Source: Roseithermus sacchariphilus
GTDB lineage: Bacteria; Bacteroidota; Rhodothermia; Rhodothermales; MEBIC09517
Length of the DNA stretch: 64,000 nt
NCBI GenBank assembly: GCA_003285105.1
Contig: CP030158.1
Span: forward strand, 2,518,501 to 2,582,500
Direction of reading: 5' to 3'
The notes beneath the pieces are model-generated. The model had not been told where the DNA came from, searched no databases, and saw nothing but the letters and a program-made list of their open reading frames with translations. The position numbers and the translations under genes are program-made. This document shows positions 20,348-63,027 of the stretch, piece by piece; the first letter of the stretch is position 1, and the number at the start of each line of letters is the position of its first letter.

Positions 20348-21028
20348 ATGATGCGCCTACATCGCTGGCTGCTTACGTTCGGGATGGTGCTATGGCCCCT
20401 GGGAGAGGCGGCCGTGGCTCAGGTGGTGCGTCCCCCCGAATTGCAGCAGCAGTACTATCGGGCTGAGGCGGCCTGGCGGAGCGGGTCCAGCGTGCTCGAA
20501 GCGAAAGCCCGCGTGGACCGGGTGCTGCGGGAGATCCCCGACGACGTCGCAGCCCGGAAGCTGCGTGCGCAGGTCTTGCTCGCCATGCAGCGCCCTGCCG
20601 AGGCGCTTCCCGACGCCCGCCGCGCGGCGGAACTCGATCCGAACGACGGGGAGGCCCTGCTCATCCTCAGCGAGGCCGCCCGGCTCAGCGGGGACACGAC
20701 GCTGGCGCGTCAGGCGCTGGACCAGGCCGCCGACCACATCCTGGAAGATGCGGCCCTGCATCTGCGGCTATCCTGGAACGCCATGGAACTGGGCTTGCTC
20801 GACCGGGCCGAGTCCTTCGCCCGGATTGCGCTGGCCCTCGACGGCGAGGCGGCGGCGGCGTACTATCATCTGGCCCGGGTCTTCATGCGGCAACACCGCC
20901 CGGATGAAGCAGCCACCATTCTCCGGCAGGGCCTCGATCGCTCGCTGCTCGATCCGGCCGCCCTGTGGGACGATCCGGTTCTGAAGCCGCTCATGCAGCA
21001 TCCTGCCCTGCGTGGCTACGTCGATTAG
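20348..21028 (+). CDS. Secreted TPR-repeat protein
   Basis: A 226-residue protein with signal peptide (MMRLHRWLLTFGMVLWPLGEAAVAQ) and about four TPR-type helical repeats: AEAAWRSGSSVLEAKARVDR, QRPAEALPDARRAAELDPND, GDTTLARQALDQAADHILED and EAAAAYYHLARVFMRQHRPDEAATILRQGL. It probably acts as a periplasmic protein-protein scaffold; no partner is evident. Two adjacent ATG codons (20348, 20351) can start it. Divergent from birA. The stop codon TAG merges into a 7-bp tandem array that fills the gap to the next gene. Confidence 0.8.
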   Translation: MMRLHRWLLTFGMVLWPLGEAAVAQVVRPPELQQQYYRAEAAWRSGSSVLEAKARVDRVLREIPDDVAARKLRAQVLLAMQRPAEALPDARRAAELDPNDGEALLILSEAARLSGDTTLARQALDQAADHILEDAALHLRLSWNAMELGLLDRAESFARIALALDGEAAAAYYHLARVFMRQHRPDEAATILRQGLDRSLLDPAALWDDPVLKPLMQHPALRGYVD

Positions 21029-21097
21029 CTGCGGGCTTCTGGCTGCGGGCTTCTGGCTGCGGGCTTCTGGCTGCGGGCTTCTGGCTGCGGTGATCAG
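21028..21097. repeat. Heptad tandem array between TPR and lipoprotein genes
   Basis: Alternating 7-mers GCTGCGG and GCTTCTG (a 14-bp period repeated four times, plus a final GCTGCGG and TGATCAG) run from the stop of the + gene to the stop of the convergent gene. Both stop codons overlap the array. Confidence 0.93.
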
Positions 21098-41917: not shown

Positions 41918-43468
41918 CTAGGCGTCGGTCTGCGTGTGCTGGGCGTAGCTTTCCCACAGCTCTCCCAGGAAGAACGCCCCGAAGGTCGCCAGCGTGCGGG
42001 CTTTCTCGGTCAGCGCGTCGGTGTGGATGGCACGCATGGTCGAGACGAGCCGGATGAGGTCGCCGACGCCCAGGCTGAGGATGCCGGCGCCGACGACGGG
42101 GGCGTGGCCGTCCGGCCCCCGGTGCAGGGTGGTGAACAGCGTCGTGGTATCCTTCCACAGGTCGAAGCCTGGGTCGTCCCGGATGGTTTTTCGGCCGGCG
42201 AGGTAGTAGTCCTCGTCGCCGTGGCGGAAGGCCAGTTCGTAGACCATGTACTTGGTTTCCGGGTCGTCGGCCGGGGAGAACAGGTTGAAGACCCCTCGGC
42301 GGGCAGGGATGGCCGTGCCGAACGGGGTGAAGTCGATCGTGGCGACGAGCGAGCCGGCGTGGTCGGGGTCGGCGATGAAGCGGGCAAGGTCGTGGATGGT
42401 GATGGTGGCGTGCAGGGCGAGGTGGTGGCCGTCGCGCCGGCCCTGCTCGAAGCCGGTCTGCGGGTCCGACGGGCCGAGGGCGAAGGGGCCTTCCATCGTT
42501 TCGCGGAAGGTGATGCCGGGGTTGGAGGTCAGCATGCGGGTCGTTGCCGGAGTGAAGGGGAGGCCATCGGCCGGGCGCGTTTCGAGGTAGGCCCAGGCCT
42601 CGGCATAGCCCTGGTTGACGAGCGTGGCCCCGTCGACGTCGCCGAAGTAATACGCCGGGTCGAGGGGCAGGGGGAAGGTGGGCTTGATCAGGTGGAGGCG
42701 GATCGGCTCGGTGTGGCCGTAGACCGTCTCGCCCTGCCGGATGCGGTCGTTGATCTCCCGGATCCGGTCGAAGGCGTCGTGGAGGGCTCCGCAGGCACTC
42801 ATCTCGATCATGTGGACGTACTGGTTGAAGAAGCCGTCGCGGTAGACGGGGGTGTTGGCGATGATCCAGACCACCCACAGCTCCTGCGCGCCGCGGCGGA
42901 CGGCGTCGATCAGGTTGGCGTCCTGGATCCAGACGGCGTCGGTGTAGGTCGTCTCCCCCTTGCGCACGGCCGGCATGAACATGGGCAGCGAGACCCCGGC
43001 GACGAGCAGGTCGAGGTCGATGTGCGGGTGGGGGATGGCCTCGTTCACCTTGTCGGTGAAGTTGCACACGTTGAAGGTGGCGTCGATGCCCTCGGCCGTG
43101 CAGATGCGGGCCACGTCGATGCCGAGGTGCGGGAAGACGTCCTCGACGAGGCCGTCGGCATCGCCCATCGCGGCCATGGCGGGGCCACGCAGGTATTCGG
43201 CGAAAGGCATCAACGAGACGAAGTCCCGGACGCGCAGCGTGCGCCATCGCTCACACATGGCTGTGGGCGAGAGGCCGGAGAGCAGCATCGCCAGGTTCAT
43301 GATGCCGCCCGAAGTGCCGTCGGCATGGGTGAAGCAGAGGCCGGCTTCTTCGAGGGCCCGCAACACGCCGGCCTGGTAGGCCACCCGCATACCGCCGCCG
43401 GCCAGGATGAGCGCACGCCGGGGGCCGGTGTAGCCGGCGGGCGGGGTGAGGTAGGGTGTGTGGGGCAT
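41918..43468 (-). CDS. Patatin-like phospholipase with C-terminal extra domain
   Basis: A 516-residue protein. The patatin domain spans residues 17-260: oxyanion loop LILAGGGMRVAYQAG (24-27) and nucleophile elbow GTSGG with Ser53. The catalytic Asp is in QDANLIDAVRRGAQELWVV, where DAN replaces the usual DGG/DGA. Residues 320-470 form a second domain of unknown type (FRETMEGPFALG, LALHATITIHDLARFIAD, GRKTIRDDPGFDLWKDTT), which resembles a beta-rich lipid-binding or cholesterol-oxidase-associated segment. Patatins hydrolyse acyl esters of membrane lipids. It is sixth of seven genes beginning with a GMC oxidoreductase; the gap before it is filled by heptads. Confidence 0.88.
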   Translation of the reverse strand: MPHTPYLTPPAGYTGPRRALILAGGGMRVAYQAGVLRALEEAGLCFTHADGTSGGIMNLAMLLSGLSPTAMCERWRTLRVRDFVSLMPFAEYLRGPAMAAMGDADGLVEDVFPHLGIDVARICTAEGIDATFNVCNFTDKVNEAIPHPHIDLDLLVAGVSLPMFMPAVRKGETTYTDAVWIQDANLIDAVRRGAQELWVVWIIANTPVYRDGFFNQYVHMIEMSACGALHDAFDRIREINDRIRQGETVYGHTEPIRLHLIKPTFPLPLDPAYYFGDVDGATLVNQGYAEAWAYLETRPADGLPFTPATTRMLTSNPGITFRETMEGPFALGPSDPQTGFEQGRRDGHHLALHATITIHDLARFIADPDHAGSLVATIDFTPFGTAIPARRGVFNLFSPADDPETKYMVYELAFRHGDEDYYLAGRKTIRDDPGFDLWKDTTTLFTTLHRGPDGHAPVVGAGILSLGVGDLIRLVSTMRAIHTDALTEKARTLATFGAFFLGELWESYAQHTQTDA

Positions 43469-43470
43469 GG

Positions 43471-43526
43471 GCTTCTGGCTGCGGGCTGCGGGCTTCTGGC
43501 TGATGGCTGACCGCTGACCGCTTCAA
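43471..43526. repeat. Heptad array between membrane-protein and patatin genes
   Basis: Units GCTTCTG GCTGCGG GCTGCGG GCTTCTG GCTGATG GCTGACC GCTGACC GCTTCAA, eight heptads, occupy the gap from the stop of the membrane protein (inside the last unit) to three bases before the patatin start. Confidence 0.92.
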
Positions 43527-49007: not shown

Positions 49008-49098
49008 GTGTCGAATGTCGAGTGGCGAGTGGCGAATGGCGAGTGTCGAGTGTAGAGTGTCGAATGTAGAGTGGCGAGTGGCGAGTGGCGAGTGTCAA
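49008..49098. repeat. Heptad array (GTGGCGA type), 13 units
   Basis: Thirteen 7-bp units of forms GTGGCGA, GTGTCGA, ATGTCGA, GTGTAGA and ATGGCGA lie six bases upstream of the spmB start on the minus strand. In one minus-strand frame it reads as repetitive (TRHSPL-like) peptide without a real gene. Confidence 0.92.
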
Positions 49099-49253: not shown

Positions 49254-49398
49254 GAGAAGGGGCGGTGTCGCGCCGCGACGGAGGGGTAGCCCCTCGGCGA
49301 GGGCGGCACAGCGGCGGGTGTTGACCCCCTTCCCCCTGCGGGGACTTCCCCCTGATCGGCCTGCGGCCAGGGGGAAGAACTCGTTCCGGCACGAAGCC
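49254..49398 (+). repeat. Dispersed element copy A (about 145 bp)
   Basis: Begins GAGAAGGGGCGGTGTCGCG, continues through GTTGACCCCCTTCCCCCTGC and ends GAACTCGTTCCGGCACGAAGC. Two further copies lie at 53987 and 57281 (the latter inverted). A partial second copy follows at 49417-49457. Internal palindromes are short and GC-rich. Confidence 0.9.
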
Positions 49399-49416
49399 GC
49401 AAACCAGATCCTCCCC

Positions 49417-49457
49417 TTGCGAAGGGGAGGTGTCGCGCAGCGACGGAGGGGTAGCCC
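49417..49457 (+). repeat. Partial copy of the dispersed element
   Basis: TTGCGAAGGGGAGGTGTCGC and AGCGACGGAGGGGTAGCCC repeat the left end of the dispersed element directly after copy A. Confidence 0.75.
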
Positions 49458-49490
49458 TCCCACGGGATAGATCTCGACAGCGTAACATCG

Positions 49491-53849: not shown

Positions 53850-53929
53850 ACGGCAGGCGGTGACGCGCGCGGACAGAGAAAACGCACCGGCTGATCCTAC
53901 GAGGAACGAGGCAGAATCACAAGGTGTGA

Positions 53930-53985
53930 GCGGTCAGCCGTCAGCCGTCAGCCGTCAGCGGTAAGCCAGTAGCCAGCAGCCAGCC
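53930..53985. repeat. Heptad array left of dispersed element copy B
   Basis: Eight heptads: GCGGTCA GCCGTCA GCCGTCA GCCGTCA GCGGTAA GCCAGTA GCCAGCA GCCAGCC. The same series resumes on the other side of element copy B. Confidence 0.92.
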
Positions 53986-53986
53986 G

Positions 53987-54133
53987 CTTGAGAAGGGGCG
54001 GTGTCGCGGAGCGACGGAGGGGTAGACCTCGGGCGATGGCGGCGCAACAGCGGGTGTTGACCCCCTTCCCCCTTCGGGGACTTCCCCCTGTACGGCCTGC
54101 GGCCAGGGGGAAGAACTCGTTCCGGCACGAAGC
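53987..54133 (+). repeat. Dispersed element copy B (about 147 bp)
   Basis: TTGAGAAGGGGCGGTGTCGC to GAACTCGTTCCGGCACGAAGC. Flanked on both sides by near-identical heptad arrays (GCGGTCAGCCGTCAGCCGTC). Same element as copies A and C. Confidence 0.92.
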
Positions 54134-54252
54134 GGTCAGCCGTCAGCCGTCAGCGGTAAGCCAGTAGCCCGCAGCCCCCAGCTGCACAGCAAGCCCCATC
54201 GTGTCAAGCCAGATCACTGATCGCTGAACGCTGAACGCTGATCGCTGAAAGC
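54132..54252. repeat. Heptad arrays right of dispersed element copy B
   Basis: GCGGTCA GCCGTCA GCCGTCA GCGGTAA GCCAGTA GCCCGCA runs to about 54180; after about 35 other bases a second set follows, ACTGATC GCTGAAC GCTGAAC GCTGATC GCTGAAA, to 54252. These fill most of the gap between the DUF3311 and small hypothetical genes. Confidence 0.88.
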
Positions 54253-55278: not shown

Positions 55279-56049
55279 ATGCCCCGTTCTCGCATGGATT
55301 TCCCAACGCATCGTGTGTGCCTGTGGTCCGGGCCGCGCAACGTGTCCACGGCCCTGATGTACAGCTTTCGCCAGCGCCGCGATACGCGCGTGGTCGATGA
55401 GCCGCTCTACGGCCACTACCTGCGCGTCACCGGTGCGCCACACCCGGCCCCCGAAGCCGTCCTGGCGGCGCTGGACACCGACGGCGAACGGGTGGTGCGC
55501 GAGGTGGTGCTGGGACCGTGCGACCGGCCGGTGCTCTTCATGAAGCACATGGCGCATCACCTGATCGACCTCGACCTCGGGTTTCTGGACGAGACGGTGA
55601 ACGTGCTGCTCATCCGCGACCCCCGGGACATGCTGCCGTCGCTGGCGAAGCAGCTCCCCGAGCCGACCCTGCGCGACACCGGCCTGGCCCGTCAGGTGGC
55701 GCTGCTGGACGACCTGCTCGCCCGCGGGCAGGATCCGCCGGTGCTCGACGCCCGCGAGCTGCTGCTCGATCCGCCCGGGGTGCTGCGGCAGCTCTGCCGG
55801 CGGATCGGCCTGCCGTTCGACGAGGCCATGCTGCGCTGGCCGGCGGGGCCGAAGCCGGAAGACGGCGTCTGGGCGCCCTACTGGTACGAGAGCGTCCATC
55901 GCTCCACCGGCTGGCAGCCCTACCGGCCCAAGACCGCCCCGTTGCCCGAGCACCTGCGCCCACTCCTGGAGGCCTGCCGGCCCTACTACGAGCGGCTCTA
56001 CGCCCGGGCCCTTCGACGAACGACGGAAGAAGAGCAGCGGTCGGCATAG
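55279..56049 (+). CDS. Sulfotransferase-family protein, paired with the aminotransferase
   Basis: A 256-residue P-loop protein. VCLWSGPRNVSTALMYSFRQRRDT holds the 5'-PSB loop-like site; MKHMAHHLIDLDLGF and VNVLLIRDPRDMLPSLAKQL provide the 3'-PB Arg/Asp motif of PAPS-binding sulfotransferases; YGHYLRVTGAPHPAP is the substrate region. The C-terminus is YYERLYARALRRTTEEEQRS. Such proteins stand beside or are fused to class IV aminotransferases. The next gene is one, in the same direction. The 136-base gap is almost wholly a heptad array. Either ATG, 55279 or 55294, could be used. Confidence 0.8.
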   Translation: MPRSRMDFPTHRVCLWSGPRNVSTALMYSFRQRRDTRVVDEPLYGHYLRVTGAPHPAPEAVLAALDTDGERVVREVVLGPCDRPVLFMKHMAHHLIDLDLGFLDETVNVLLIRDPRDMLPSLAKQLPEPTLRDTGLARQVALLDDLLARGQDPPVLDARELLLDPPGVLRQLCRRIGLPFDEAMLRWPAGPKPEDGVWAPYWYESVHRSTGWQPYRPKTAPLPEHLRPLLEACRPYYERLYARALRRTTEEEQRSA

Positions 56050-56181
56050 CTTTCAGCCGTCAGCGGTCAGCCAGTAGCCAGAAGCCCACAGCCCACAGCC
56101 CACAGTCCGCAGTCCGCAGCCCACAGCCCGCAGCCCACAGCCCGCAGCCCACAGCCCGCAGCCCACAGCCCGCAGCCCACC
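56049..56181. repeat. Heptad array of 19 units between sulfotransferase and aminotransferase genes
   Basis: GCTTTCA GCCGTCA GCGGTCA GCCAGTA GCCAGAA, then alternating GCCCACA and GCCCGCA (with GTCCGCA twice). It begins at the last base of the sulfotransferase stop codon and ends five bases before the aminotransferase ATG, leaving no space for an ordinary ribosome-binding site. Confidence 0.95.
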
Positions 56182-56185
56182 CATC

Positions 56186-57109
56186 ATGCCTGACGCCCAG
56201 CGCCCCGAACCAGTCCTGCCCGATCCTCGCAACGCCGGCATCCTCGTCTACGTCAACGGCGCCATCGTGCCTCGCGAGGAGGCCTGCGTCTCCGTCTTCG
56301 ACAGCGTCGTGCAGGCCGGCGATGCCGTCTGGGAGGGGCTCCGCGTCTACGACGGCAAGGTGGCCGAACTGGAGGCCCACCTGGACCGGCTCTTCGACTC
56401 GGCGCACGCGCTGGCCTTCCAGGAGGTGCCCTCGCGCGAGGTCGTGCGGCAGGCCCTGTTCGACACGCTCCGGGCCAACGGCATGCGGGACGGCGTCCAC
56501 ATCCGGCTGACGCTCACGCGCGGCAAGAAGGTGACCTCCGGCATGAACCCGAAGTGGAATCAATACGGCCCGACGCTCATCATCCTGCCCGAGTGGAAGC
56601 CGCCCATCTACCGCGACCGCCGCCTGCGGCTCATCACCTCCTCCATCCGCCGCAACAACCCGCAGTGCCTCGACTCCAAGATCCACCACAGCAACCTGAT
56701 CAATAACATCCTCGCCAAGATCGAGGCCAACCACGCCGGTGCCGACGGGGCGATCATGCTGGACCTGAACGGGTTCGTCTCGGAGGTCAACGGCACCAAC
56801 CTGTTCATCGTCCGCCGCGGTGAGGTGATCACGCCGCACGCCGACAGTTGCCTGCCCGGCATCACCCGCGGGCTGGTCCTGCGCCTGGCCCGGGCCGACG
56901 GCATCCCGGCCGTCGAGCGCAACGTCTCGATGACCGAGGTCTACACGGCCGATGAGGTGTTTGCCACCGGCACGGAGGGCGAACTCGCCCCGGTGGAGGA
57001 GGTGGACGGCCGCCGGATCCGGGGCGTGGAGGACCGGCCCATCACGCGCCGGCTCCAGCAGCGCTACGCCGAGTGGGTCCGCACCCACGGCACGCCGATC
57101 CCGGAATGA
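56186..57109 (+). CDS. Class IV aminotransferase (branched-chain/D-amino-acid type)
   Basis: A 307-residue PLP enzyme of fold type IV. GILVYVNGAIVPREEACVSVFDSVVQAGDAVWEGLRVYDGKV is the conserved N-terminal region, the PLP-binding Lys is in CLDSKIHHSNLINNILAK, phosphate binding is GFVSEVNGTNLFIV and PGITRGLVLRLA. It resembles IlvE/DAT. The substrate is probably a branched-chain or related amino acid. The start at 56186 follows a heptad array directly, so ribosome binding is unusual. A second large heptad region follows its stop. Confidence 0.92.
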   Translation: MPDAQRPEPVLPDPRNAGILVYVNGAIVPREEACVSVFDSVVQAGDAVWEGLRVYDGKVAELEAHLDRLFDSAHALAFQEVPSREVVRQALFDTLRANGMRDGVHIRLTLTRGKKVTSGMNPKWNQYGPTLIILPEWKPPIYRDRRLRLITSSIRRNNPQCLDSKIHHSNLINNILAKIEANHAGADGAIMLDLNGFVSEVNGTNLFIVRRGEVITPHADSCLPGITRGLVLRLARADGIPAVERNVSMTEVYTADEVFATGTEGELAPVEEVDGRRIRGVEDRPITRRLQQRYAEWVRTHGTPIPE

Positions 57110-57283
57110 GTCGTCAGCGGGTCAGCCTGACGGCTGAAAGCTTCTGGCTACGGGCTTCTGGCTTCTGGCTACGGGCTGCTGGCTATTCGCGGAAGGCTGA
57201 CCGCTGACGGCTGACCGCTGACGGCTGACCGCTGACGGCTGAAAGCTGACCGCTGAAAGCTGACCGCTGAAAGCTGCGGGCTT
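57110..57283. repeat. Long heptad array after the aminotransferase gene
   Basis: Tandem 7-mers (GCTGACC GCTGACG, GCTTCTG GCTACGG, GCTGAAA) cover about 170 bases from the aminotransferase stop to dispersed element copy C. No gene is seen here. Confidence 0.9.
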
Positions 57284-57427
57284 CGTGCCGGAACGAGTTC
57301 TTCCCCCTGGCCGCAGGCCCTGCAGGGGGAAGTCCCCGAAGGGGGAAGGGGGTCATGACCGCCGCATCGCCGCCATCATCCGGGGGCTACCCCTCCGTTG
57401 CGGCGCGACACCGCCCCTTCGCAAGCG
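57281..57427 (-). repeat. Dispersed element copy C (about 147 bp, inverted)
   Basis: GCTTCGTGCCGGAACGAGTTC through GCGACACCGCCCCTTCGCAAGC is the reverse complement of copies A and B, again between heptad arrays. Confidence 0.92.
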
Positions 57428-57506
57428 GCTGGCTACTGGCTTCGGGCTGACGGCTGACCGCTGACGGCTGACCGCTGACGGCTGACCGCTGACCGCTGAC
57501 GGCTGA
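57427..57506. repeat. Heptad array right of dispersed element copy C
   Basis: GCGGCTGGCTACTGGCTTCGG, then GCTGACGGCTGACC repeats, about eleven heptads. Confidence 0.88.
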
Positions 57507-58050
57507 AGGCAGGTTTTGCCCGGGGGGATGAAAAAAACGGGGGCGGCCCATGTCCGGTGGGCACGGGAGGCATGTGCCGCGAGCGGTGGAACGTTGGAAG
57601 GCAGAGCGGTCCCTGCAGGGTCGAAACGAGGGAAAACGGCGCGATCCAGGGCCCTGGCGCAGGAGCGTAGGCGATAAAATCCACGCATCGCCGCTTTAGG
57701 ATGTATCGGATCGGTCGATGCAGAGGGTAACCCATGAATCGGGTCCCTTGCCGGGCCGCATGGGGTGGCACGGTCTTTGACGAAGGCCCTGTTGCACTCG
57801 AAAACCCTGAGCATAGCCCACTAGCGAGCCGTGATCTCTCGACACACGACCCAGACGATGGGGGATGATAGAGCCAGCAGAAGGCGTCCGGTGCGTGTGA
57901 TTCGACGTGAGGGATTTCCGCGTACACAGTAACCCACAGTAGTCCCGGCACGGGTCGGTCGCTGCAACGGCCGGTTCGTGGAGCCGCCTGCTGATTCCTG
58001 TTCATCACAAACCACCAGACGACATCTGTAATCCTTAGGAGGCGCTAGTT
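57507..58050. other. Gene-free upstream region of the giant T9SS cargo gene
   Basis: About 540 bases with no convincing gene on either strand; open frames here lack homology-like features and ribosome-binding sites. A strong ribosome-binding site (TAGGAGGCG) lies immediately before the next gene. Long untranslated or regulatory sequence is likely, given the length. Confidence 0.6.
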
Positions 58051-61000
58051 ATGAGTCTAACGAGAGCACTACGCCGCTGTGGTGGGTGGATCGTAGTCAC
58101 CGCCCTCATGAGCTGGTTCGGCACCGGTCTGGCCCACGGCTTCGACACCTACGACGGAGGCCCGGACGGCCCCGGCGCATCGCTGGAACAGTACCTCGAT
58201 GCGGACGGCACCCTCAACCTCCCGGCCGGCTTCACGGGGAGTTTGAACCCGGCCGGCTGGAACATGAGCTTCGACGCGCAGGGGCGGCCCGTCTTCACGC
58301 GGGCGGCGACGGCCGCGGCGTCGATGGCGGCCCTCGCCGCCGGAGACGAGGCCTGGAACCCGAACCGCGAGTTCAACAGCATGGGCGCCAACGGCAACAT
58401 CTACGCCGTCGTCGTCGACGTGGACGGCAACGTGTACGTGGGCGGCAGCTTCACCAAGGCCGGCGGCCGCACCGCGCCCTACATCGCCAAGTTCCAGGTC
58501 GGCTCGAACAATGCCAAGAAGTGGGTCAACCTGGCCGACGACCTCGACGGGAACGTGTGGGCGCTCGCCATCGGCCCGGACGGCTACGTCTACGCCGGCG
58601 GCGAGTTCTCGACGGCCGGGGGCGTGACGGTCAACAACGTGGCCCGCTACACCGGCTCCGCGTGGGAGGCCCTGGGGGCCACGCCCGGCACCAACGGGAC
58701 GGTCTACGCGCTGGCCTTCAGCGGTAACAACCTCTACGTCGGGGGAGACTTCGCCTCGGCGGGGTCGGCCTCGGCGGCCAACGTGGCCGTCTACAACACG
58801 CTCAGCGGCTCCTGGAGCGCCCTGGGTTCGGGCACGAGCGGGACGGTCTATGCCCTCGAGGTGATCGGTGGCAACGTCTACGCCGGCGGCTCGTTTGCCA
58901 CGGCCGGCGGCACCACCGTCAACAACATCGCCCGCTGGAGCGTGCCCAACGAGCTCTGGTTCGCCCTGGAGAATGCCAACACCGGCATCAACGGCGTGAC
59001 CGGCACCGTCTACGCACTCGATGCGGACGGATCGGACCTCTACCTGGGCGGGAGCTTCACGGTGGACGTCAACGGCTCCGACACGGGCACGAACCTGGCC
59101 CGGTGGACGGGCACCAACTTCCTCCGGCTCTCCGACGGCGCCGGTGAAGGCGCCAACGGCACCGTCTACAGCATCGCCGTGCGCAACACCGGCACGCGCG
59201 CCGTCTACATCGGCGGGGCGTTCACCCAGGCCGGCAGCACCACCGTCAGCCGCGTGGCCGTGTGGGACCCCGCCGGGGAGGACTTCACGCCGCTCGACGA
59301 CGCGCAGCTCTTCGCCGCCAGCGGCGCCGGTGGCACCGTGCGTGCGCTCTTCTACAGCCAGCGCGGTTCCACCGACGAACTCTACGTCGCCGGTGCGTTC
59401 ACGACGGTCGGCGGTGGGTTCAACGTCAACCGCATCGCCTACTGGGACCTGGACCAGACCGCCGGCAGCGGCGAATGGCGCGGCCTCGGTCACGGCGTCA
59501 ACGGGCCCATCTATGCCCTGCTGGTCAACAACAGCCGCCTCTACGTCGGCGGGGACTTCGACGCCGTCGGCGGTATGCAGGCCAACAACGTGGCCTACCT
59601 CAGCCTCTCCGACTTCTCCTGGAACCGCCTCACCAACGGCGGTACCCTGAACGGGACGGACGGCCCGGTCTATGCGCTGGCAGCCTATAACGACGGCACC
59701 GACAACTTCATCGTCGTCGGGGGAGACTTCACCTACGTGCCGGGTGCCACCGGCTTCAACACGGAAGCCAACAACCTGGCCTACTGGGACAGCAACGATG
59801 GCGGTACCGGCGTAGGCACGTGGGGCCGCTTCGATGACGGTGCGACCAGCTACGGCACCAACGGCCCGGTCTATGCACTCGAGATGGAGAGCGCCAGCGC
59901 GGACATCGCGACGACCAACTTGCTCTATGTCGGCGGCAGCTTCACCTCGGCCACGGGGACGGCCGCGAACAACATCGCGAGTTTCGATGCCACGTCGGGT
60001 GGTGTAGCGGCCATCGGCAACGGCTTCAACGGCCCGGTCTACGCCCTGGAGTACCACTCGAACGGCGACGACCTCTACGTGGGCGGCAACTTCACGGCCT
60101 CCGGGTCGACAAGCTACCCCTACCTGGCCAGCATCAATGCCGGGACGACCATCCAGGTCTGGGACGGCTTCGGGGCCAGCGGCGTCGGCACCAACGGGCC
60201 CGTCTACGACCTGCACATTCGCACGCCGGGCTCGGCCCTCGGGGACACGAACCCGCTCTTCATCGGGGGCGACTTCACCTCGATCACCTACGATGACGAC
60301 CAGAGCGGGGGCGGTACGAGCGCCGGCACCACGAGCGCCAGCTACATCGCCATCTGGGACGGTGCCAGCGATGCCGATGCGGCCGCCCCGAGCACCGGCA
60401 CGGGTGTCAACGGCCCGGTCTATGCCCTCTACTTCGACGGCACGAGCCTCTTTGCCGGCGGGGCCTTCACGACGGCCAACGGCACGGCGGCCTCGGGTAC
60501 GGCCTATGCCGTCATCGAGAGCGGGAACGTGACGAGCTGGAACGCCCAGGGCAGCGGCGTCAACAGCACCCCGCGTGCCGTCGCCAACTACTCGGAGTCG
60601 TCCATCGGCTACGTGGTCTACGCCGGCGAGTTCACGCAGGCCGGCGACGGCCAGCCCAGCTACGGCCTGGCCGCCTACGACCCGCCGACGGTCTCCTCGG
60701 GGAGCAGTGGCGGTGACACCGCGCCCACGACCGCCCCGGCGCTGTCCTACCTCGGCGATGGGTTCGACATCCAGACGCTCGACCGGACGAACGAGATCAA
60801 CGCGGCGATTCCGTATCGCGTAACGCTGACGTGGGGCTCGGTCTCCGGCGCGAGCAATTACAAGCTCTGGTATGATGTCGGTGCTGCGCAGGACGGCGTG
60901 GACCTCAGCGGGGCCGCCGACTACTTCGGCGCGGATACCACCTACACGATCGAGATCACGACCAATACGAACGTCGCCATCGAGTTCGTCGTCTGTGGTA

Positions 61001-63027
61001 CGATCGCGACCTCCAACGGAGCCTACAACGGCGATCCCGATAACATCGTCAGTGGGGACCATGCCAACAACGGATCCGATCAGGACGGTGCCTGCCTGAC
61101 CGATGGTGTCGACGACGATGCCGATAACGACGACAACGGAACGATCGATGCCGGTGAGACGGTCTCGGGTGTGAACATCAACATCGAAGATGCCACGCTC
61201 AACATGACCTACAACGGCACGACGTACACCACGGAGGCCGACTTCGCGCTGCCGAGCACGCCGACGAGTGTCGTCGCCACGGTCATCATCCCGAACAGCA
61301 TCTCGCCGACGCTGTACACGGCGAGCACCAGCGAGAACCTGGACGACGGCGACATCGTCGTGGCCGTGTGGACCGATCCGTCGACGGGCCTGCTCAACGG
61401 CGGCGGTTACGGCGTCCATCACGTGACCTCCGGCCAGGACCTCGTGTTCAACATCTACGGAGACAACCCGGTCACGCCCGCCAAGGACGGCTTCGCGCCG
61501 GGCGAGTACATGCGGTTCTTCGTCTTCGAGCACGACCCGACGGCCGACGGCGCCGCCGATGCCAACTTCTCCGGGACCTACTACCTCGCCAAGGTCACCT
61601 TCCGCGATGCGACGCCGAACTTCTCGGCCAGCACGATCTACGAGGCGACCTCGTTCGAGGCCTACGACATCACCTACAACAGCCACGAGCACCTGATCTC
61701 GCTCCAGCAGGGCTGGAACCTGATGTCGACGTTCCTGGAGCCGAACGGAAGCACCTCGGAGGACATCGAGGACGTCTTCAAGGCGTCCGCTGGTGCCGCG
61801 AGCATCGGCTTCACGAGCGGGGCCACCTCCAACTTCGGGCTGGCCCGGTCGCTCGACGGCGGGTTGTACTACCCGACCTTCGGTATCAACACCATCGACA
61901 CGTACGACACCGACAGCGGCTACCAGGTCTACATGAGCGCGGCGGACACGTTGCAGATCCTGGGCTCGCTGCCGGGCGACCTGGACGTGAGCGTGGTGGA
62001 GACGCGCTGGACGATCATCCCGTACCTGCGGAACGAGCGGCAGCGCATCGAGGATGCCCTCGAAGCCGATCTGAACGACATCGTGGCCGTCCGTGACAAT
62101 GCCGGTAACGCGTTCATCCCGGCCTTCGGGATCAACCAGATCGAGTGGATGACGCCCGGCCAGGGCTACCTCATCTACATGAACGACGGGGATGGAACCT
62201 CCGGTGAGACGCTGACGCTGACCTTCAGCGCGAGCAACAACTTCGTCGCGGACTCGATCCTGACGCGGAAGCAGGCCGAGCGGGCCGCCCTGGGCCGTGA
62301 GGTGGCCGAGGAGATCCCGGCCTTCCCGGTGCCGGTGCAGAGCACGCGCTTCACGCCGGTGCGGACGCAGACCGGCTCGTCGGCCACGCTGATCCTGGAG
62401 AGCCAGGAGCTGCGGGTGGGCGATGAGATCGGCGTGTTCAACCAGGCCGGAGACGTCGTCGGCGTCGGGGTCGTCGAGCAGAAAGGCCGTGTGGCCGTCA
62501 CCATCTGGGGGGATGACATCATCACCGAAGACGTGGTCGACGGCGCGCAGCTCGGCGAGGAACTGACGCTGCGGGCCTGGGTGCAGCAGCTCGGCTCCGA
62601 AGAGGCCATCGACGTGCTGCGCCTGCGGGACGTGCTCTCGGGGGCGGAGATGGACCCGGTCGTCCGCTACGAGGAGAACGGCGTCCATGCCGGTGAGGTG
62701 AATGTGGCCAACGTGCAGGTGAGCACGGAAGGCGACCTGGGCCTCCCGACCGAGTTCGAGCTGGCGCAGAACTACCCGAACCCGTTCAACCCGGTCACCA
62801 CGATCCGCTACGCCCTGCCCGAGGCGGCGCAGGTCACCCTGGAGGTCTTTGACATCACGGGGCGGCGTGTGGCGCAGCTGGTCAACACGCAGCAGGCCGC
62901 TGGCCGCTACGAGGCCACTTGGAACGGCCGCAACAGCGCCGGGCAGCAGGTCTCCAGCGGCGTGTACTTCTACCGCATCACCGCCGGGACCTTCACGCAG
63001 ACCCATCGGATGGTGCTGCTGAAATAG
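58051..63027 (+). CDS. Giant secreted repeat protein with T9SS C-terminal sorting domain
   Basis: A 1658-residue cell-surface or secreted protein. N-terminal signal: [19 protein letters not shown]. Residues about 100-910 consist of about sixteen beta-propeller-like repeats with NxxVYALxxxGxNLYVGGxFTxAGG-NNVAxW...W..LGxGxNG cores, e.g. [34 protein letters not shown] and [12 protein letters not shown]. Then a fibronectin-like and calcium-type region (about 940-1100, [18 protein letters not shown]), a 1200-1400 region with [14 protein letters not shown], and the C-terminal T9SS type A sorting domain: [58 protein letters not shown]. It should be exported by type IX secretion and be surface-attached. 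No catalytic domain is recognised. Confidence 0.93.

Follow-up and report, generated by a model that had tools for sequence, protein, structure and literature searches.

Cyanobacterial STRR heptamers are degenerate tandem heptanucleotides and belong to a host other than the one considered here. Tandem heptamers more generally are reported by the SPADE survey (PMC6344855) as the most abundant intergenic tandem repeats in many prokaryotes, with no clue to their function. Such general intergenic heptamers, as far as they are described in the available parts of the literature (PMC6344855; Mrazek 2007 as cited in PMC4692102), resemble the repeat of Roseithermus sacchariphilus in their period of 7 and in their tandem, intergenic arrangement. 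Anchoring on AGC, a consistent order of units and a companion element are all present here, whereas none of them appears in those passages of the SPADE survey. In Xanthomonas and Nostoc, the accessible sections of Rehm 2015 (PMC4692102) describe GGGNATC and GGGGA(C/T)T heptamers that are stop-proximal, lie preferably between aligned ORFs, vary in unit number and in one case sit inside the pec operon. The repeat described here is like these GGGNATC-type heptamers in being dispersed and intergenic, in lying near or overlapping stop codons and in forming some inverted pairs, whereas its unit is AGCNNNN. The strand at stops also differs, as the same sections report a preference for the G-rich strand on the coding strand, whereas here the C-rich AGC strand is more commonly sense (15 vs 6). 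The TAACTGA direct repeats of marine Beggiatoaceae are start-proximal in the portions consulted of MacGregor 2015 (PMC4679880); here, in contrast, the units are variable AGC heptads other than TAACTGA, mostly at stops, and of 43 arrays just five have a same-strand start within 15 nt, each of them filling a whole intergenic gap. Intergenic heptamers are therefore a known class, with which the AGC family shares period, location and stop proximity and from which it differs in its unit. The order rule and the companion element, called E below, are not mentioned in the compared portions of the SPADE, Rehm 2015 and MacGregor 2015 accounts. Titles and the starts of abstracts in the open-licence literature yielded no description of AGC heptads or of E, and five sequence words of E were absent from the open-licence papers searched.

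The array studied here lies within a stretch of 64,000 nt, referred to as the window, whose numbering is used throughout. It separates a sulfotransferase gene (Sulfotransfer_5; 55279-56049, + strand; Pfam PF19798, E=1.1e-50 on 55279-56046) from a class-IV aminotransferase gene on its 3' side (56186-57109, + strand; Pfam PF01063, E=2.6e-48). Every seventh base from 56048 to 56176 opens an AGC or AGT (19 in a span of 19; AGT twice), giving a + strand array at 56048-56180 of three AGCNNTC units followed by AGCCAG/AGCCC units, with two AGTCCGC among them and the AGC strand as sense. The TAG stop of the sulfotransferase gene (56047-56049) overlaps the first AGC by two bases, and the last full AGC unit is separated from the ATG at 56186 by the five-base spacer remainder CCATC (56181-56185, + strand). 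The coordinates agree with the original prediction, which had described an array of 19 heptads between the two genes, beginning within the preceding stop codon and ending five bases 5' of this ATG. The predicted span, 56049-56181, measures 133 bp, exactly 19 x 7, and the lag-7 identity of the array is 0.81, above all of 20000 first-order random sequences of array composition (maximum 0.55), which is the above-chance tandem 7-bp unit that characterises intergenic heptamer tandem repeats. For the sulfotransferase, the start candidates are ATG 55279, or 55294 / 55315 from two gene callers. For the aminotransferase, no alternative in-frame start lies from the in-frame stop at 56075 up to ATG 56186, and further into the gene the first candidates in frame are GTG at 56267 (codon 28) and at 56309 (codon 42). 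Both precede the Pfam stretch (residues 48-272) yet lie within the part common to relatives, the best of which match from residues 5-13. An internal aminotransferase start, named earlier as the observation that would speak against the reading of this junction, found no support on checking and appears unlikely because both GTG candidates fall inside that common part.

The array belongs to a family spread across the genome. At least 63 DNA matches to it, itself included, are present in the 4.81-Mb chromosome, a single contig (40 of 169 candidates scored), and five AGC at spacing 7 give 1390 overlapping matches genome-wide (724 + 666) vs 39 (30 + 9) for a reversed control pattern. A genome sample of 1.264 Mb, comprising the window plus 60 stretches and 83% called coding, holds 53 array entries of at least five units, or 49 arrays once pieces are merged; among the 53, the window array is counted as two and an array in stretch L101 as four. 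All entries are intergenic except one at a gene edge (52/53). A core-free search at lag 7 recovered 59 intergenic stretches vs one genic, 52 of the 59 with an AGC/GCT consensus and the remaining seven including one run of N that may also add to other lags, so that dispersal and over-representation between genes follow the pattern of the heptamer class. Other lags between 5 and 15 gave 1-5 intergenic stretches each, except 12 (18), 13 (8), 15 (9) and 14 (55), the multiple of 7 among the lags tested. Within arrays A, G and C are on average the less variable positions (0.95, 0.72 and 0.71 bits vs 1.02-1.37 elsewhere). Close to the studied locus are a second, inverted array 3' of the aminotransferase gene (57129-57282, - strand) and a third on the far side of a copy of E (57428-57504, - strand). 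The comparison with relatives was made at order level at the closest, and counts of relatives exclude the genome studied. The five-AGC pattern is found in 17 of 59 order-level relatives, with vocabularies that differ among the matches listed, and a phylum sample with 117 other genomes has AGCNNTC runs in 16 of them, at most 44 matches in any one vs 622 here. Separately, an array of about 160 units lies between divergent called genes at L101 12908-14049, where AGCTTTC and AGCCTTC alternate in much of the part printed.

The position of arrays relative to genes was counted for the 43 of 49 arrays with called genes on both sides; the calls come from a caller seeded with five window genes, and called starts are approximate. 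Contacts within 15 nt comprise 15 same-strand stops, six opposite-strand stops, five same-strand starts and no opposite-strand starts, where random placement or random insertion predicts about 1.4-1.9 for each class. Within 50 nt the corresponding numbers are 17, 8, 6 and 4. Eight arrays fill their gap to 15 nt or less on both sides vs 0.34-0.36 expected, five between co-directional genes and three between convergent ones, and the five same-strand start contacts are without exception such fills. Examples in the window are a - strand array at 43467-43522 that runs from stop to start in a co-directional gap and another on the same strand at 21024-21086 that occupies a convergent gap. The genes that follow filled junctions are unrelated (cytochrome c assembly, transport permease, glycosyltransferase, patatin-like, the last being the gene after 43467-43522). 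Because arrays are anchored at stops and contact starts solely as gap fills, a more apt description of the studied array is growth from the end of the sulfotransferase gene as far as the next gene, and the idea of a leader belonging to the aminotransferase is not supported. Given the similar arrays at many other gene ends, it looks like a spreading repeat that invaded an operon and not like a dedicated control switch. We consider it probable that the array belongs to an AGC-anchored intergenic family which spreads and expands at the ends of genes throughout the genome, and that it here intruded into an operon.

The history of the gene pair bears directly on this reading. The aminotransferase or its relatives were collected at 109 loci, 29 from order-level relatives and 80 from named genomes whose titles include Acidobacteria, Flavobacteriales, Saprospiraceae, Planctomycetota, Verrucomicrobia, Armatimonadetes and Gammaproteobacteria, and in 54 of the 109 parsing gave a sulfotransferase immediately before it. 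Between the two genes these 54 loci have a median gap of 9 nt, with 38 at -4 to 40 nt and a 4-nt overlap in ten; eight gaps below -10 nt, probably wrongly parsed stops, are kept in the median. Eight further gaps exceed 40 nt and reach up to 185 nt, and these contain no heptads. Two heptads in a row were found at the junction in none of the 54 parsed loci. In the relative at L061, with 70% identity, the stop is followed by eight bases and the ATG, and here the array places the aminotransferase start 136 nt from the sulfotransferase stop. On sequence comparison the two genes appear to form an ancient operon, compact in most cases and shared by distant phyla, and because the pair is usually tight and heptad runs are absent from the 54 parsed loci, the array would be a lineage-specific intrusion into the operon junction. 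Sequence comparison gives good support to the view that a repeat has pushed apart the genes of a conserved operon junction. The original prediction had called the array either the leader of a coupled operon or the actual 5' UTR. Its operon half is supported, since the pair recurs across distant phyla, often with a 4-nt overlap, which places the array between co-directional genes of one likely transcript; its coupling half is not supported, as most parsed relatives have only a few nt between the genes and the array parts the pair instead of coupling it. Two further array-filled junctions can be compared in the same way, each with 29 loci of relatives, of which 16 and 11 were parsed. The junction between CcmB and a cytochrome c assembly protein measures 98 nt here, and none of 16 parsed relatives (gaps 1-338 nt) carries a heptad run. 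The junction between two binding-protein-dependent transport permeases measures 42 nt here and 3 nt in three relatives that share a genus, and again no heptad run occurs in 11 parsed relatives (gaps -4 to 92 nt), among which the permease of relative G005 (84% identity) is not included. As these two junctions behave like that of the sulfotransferase and aminotransferase, the arrays can be said to intrude into operon-type junctions.

The array had been proposed to replace the normal ribosome-binding site. Among 933 called starts, 4.2% have GGAGG within the preceding 25 nt vs 1.4% in shuffles, a small excess, and the regions before these genes are rich in C (about 40%) and contain few Shine-Dalgarno words. 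Most genes thus lack such a site, and because Shine-Dalgarno words are rare in the genome there is no normal site for the array to replace. The + strand RNA of the array has a folding z of +1.16, with 175 of 200 shuffles folding at least as well, and among 250 sampled starts the aminotransferase leader is predicted to be the least folded per nt, with its start region at the 88th percentile of predicted accessibility. Reversing the array in silico lowers the accessibility of the aminotransferase start from 0.58 to 0.27, and reversal of the spacer lowers start accessibility across all five co-directional fills, the smallest change being 0.45 to 0.42. The AGC strand is sense in each of these five. 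Between co-directional genes in general, however, the preference for sense is not significant (16 sense vs 9 antisense, one-sided p = 0.11) and a strong general orientation bias was rejected, so that we only infer that the array lies in this direction because the open one is tolerated. No promoter-like site and no + strand terminator-like site was detected in 55900-57600. A sense-strand intrinsic terminator, in the form of a G+C-rich hairpin followed by a T-run, was rejected for this array on the absence of such a site and on its positive z, and membership of a known RNA family was rejected with zero Rfam matches in 55800-57800 up to E = 1. A G-quadruplex sequence motif is present on the GCT (minus) strand in two of the 53 array entries, the studied array being one of them, and as a general principle it was rejected on that count.

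The composition of the arrays provides clues to how they grow. Unit kinds are mainly AGCNNTC and AGCCAGN/AGCCCNN, and NNTC units come first on balance in all 36 arrays that contain both kinds, 28 of 28 in the sample and eight of eight outside it. In the 28 sampled arrays this balance amounts to 628 pairs with NNTC before CAG/CC units vs 41 in reverse, and two of the eight outside arrays have smaller margins (L002 2452, 37 vs 17 pairs; L006 1496, 40 vs 24); the L101 array of about 160 units is excluded from these counts. Along the array the four variable bases shift from 29% to 9% T and from 8% to 21% A. Within blocks TTTC precedes CGTC/GGTC (9 vs 2), and finer order follows no rule (CAG-type before CC-type 9 vs 7; CGTC before GGTC 8 vs 13). 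Units alternate with period 2 at 142 of 365 positions, where shuffled arrays have a mean of 54 and a maximum of 74, and neighbouring units are identical less often (61 vs 81 in shuffles). This combination of two-unit alternation above and identical neighbours below shuffled values suggests growth by blocks, often in steps of two heptads (14 bp). Plain slippage predicts like units, whereas AGC is better preserved than the remaining positions and identical neighbours fall below shuffles, and slippage alone leaves the unit order unexplained. The order itself may point to a module being copied, or to selection.

These results can be combined into a mechanism for the invaded operon. The array would have grown or inserted at the sulfotransferase stop codon, pushing the aminotransferase start 136 nt away, and would have lengthened by block copying, often two heptads (14 bp) each time. 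It is probably transcribed as an intercistronic spacer. Its survival may be explained by a sense strand that is C-rich and nearly unstructured, together with a genome that mostly initiates without Shine-Dalgarno words, such that ribosomes could still start at ATG 56186 despite the array. The likely cost would be the loss of stop-start coupling. Several observations count against an invaded operon: within 50 nt arrays reach six same-strand and four opposite-strand starts, which indicates no avoidance of starts over such a distance; the junction gap is long yet free of heptads in some relatives; Shine-Dalgarno words, though rare, exceed shuffles; the overall sense preference is weak (16 vs 9); and unit order is unexplained by slippage.

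Element E, dispersed and of about 146 bp, accompanies part of the family and raises the possibility of a composite mobile repeat, in which an ordered heptad module and E spread together by transposition or recombination and the studied copy lost E or never had it. The reference copy of E (53985-54130, + strand) is flanked by heptad arrays at 53929-53984 on its 5' side and 54131-54186 on its 3' side, both + strand; a - strand copy (57283-57427) lies between the two arrays downstream of the aminotransferase gene, and a further + strand copy at 49255-49394 has a partial one next to it (49414-49459). At least 28 E matches occur in the genome (14 of 99 candidates scored), and seven copies stand in tandem at L301 1024-2172 with near-identical 25-base spacers. 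An array lies within 60 bp of 12 of 18 E matches and E within 60 bp of 15 of 52 array entries, and all 16 neighbour pairs have E in one and the same orientation relative to the AGC strand, which together with the consistent unit order argues for a composite unit. Against this, 37 of the 52 entries have no E within 60 bp, and the array at 56048-56180 is among those without it. E is also found in two of the 59 relatives, G010 and G022, which belong to a single other family, and as neither matches the five-AGC pattern, E and heptads appear from their distribution to be separable partners. No E match was found in 72,556 plasmid records. A composite mobile repeat is accordingly a possible account of this array and one we hold to be unlikely. 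By eye, L303, L305 and L306 show nested blocks around E, with NNTC heptads outside, CAG/CC heptads inside and E in the middle, and with an inverted NNTC block on one side.

Stop anchoring would also be expected if arrays were 3'-end elements, acting as terminators or as mRNA-stability hairpins, with the copy in the operon as a by-product. In relative G005 arrays often form inverted pairs by eye, and five of nine G005 loci fold with a z of -2.0 or lower; the folding set consisted of nine of ten G005 loci (L274 left out) and two loci of the genome studied, with segments chosen by eye. The genome studied likewise contains strongly folding regions at L043 (z -3.80) and L099 (z -8.05), and the + strand RNA of 57104-57300, which covers the second, inverted array, folds with a z of -3.29. 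However, four of the nine G005 folds are within shuffle range, and inverted pairs were rejected as the general form in the genome studied, where 48 arrays include four convergent pairs and one divergent. The studied array is itself single-armed, unstructured and without a + strand terminator-like site, and it sits inside an operon-type pair, which makes a 3'-end element improbable as its explanation.

Placed directly 5' of an ATG in an open leader, and with AGC better kept than the other positions, the heptads could alternatively be sites for an RNA- or DNA-binding regulator of the downstream gene, a role that has been proposed for the TAACTGA repeats found 5' of starts in marine Beggiatoaceae. 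Such a regulatory leader is difficult to reconcile with a family that reaches same-strand starts only by filling gaps, with the unrelated genes that follow filled junctions and with the 54 parsed loci that keep the gene pair and have no array, and we regard it as quite improbable. A phase-variable contingency repeat, switching or tuning the expression of the aminotransferase, is suggested by a tandem repeat adjoining a start codon, yet is highly improbable given the many arrays beside unrelated genes and the location of this one outside the aminotransferase reading frame.

A more speculative extension, to which we give little credence, treats the array as an ordered, directional module (AGCNNTC, then AGCCAG/AGCCC) delivered to stops. 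In operons it would serve as a ribosome landing track free of Shine-Dalgarno words and structure, with independent initiation replacing stop-start coupling and array length tuning the output of the second gene. If this were true, the order rule, followed on balance by all 36 arrays with both unit kinds, would be a mark left by whatever mechanism produces the module or delivers it. The genome is a rich case in that it combines many arrays, a consistent unit order and a strong tie to stops with array-free counterpart junctions in relatives. This combination makes testable both the origin of heptad arrays at gene ends and the effect of a 136-nt repetitive spacer on coupled translation where Shine-Dalgarno sequences are few.

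Two further observations concern other sequences. A second heptad vocabulary, with a CGA core, is present in intergenic positions at window 49008-49096, L042 5243-5292 and L098 14006-14072, and the reversed control pattern CGANNNN, which may be of the same kind, has high scores in relatives G007 and G019. At 58051-63027 the window encodes a protein of great length that has beta-propeller-like matches and ends in a type IX secretion tail (Rax2, FlgD_ig, Por_Secre_tail).
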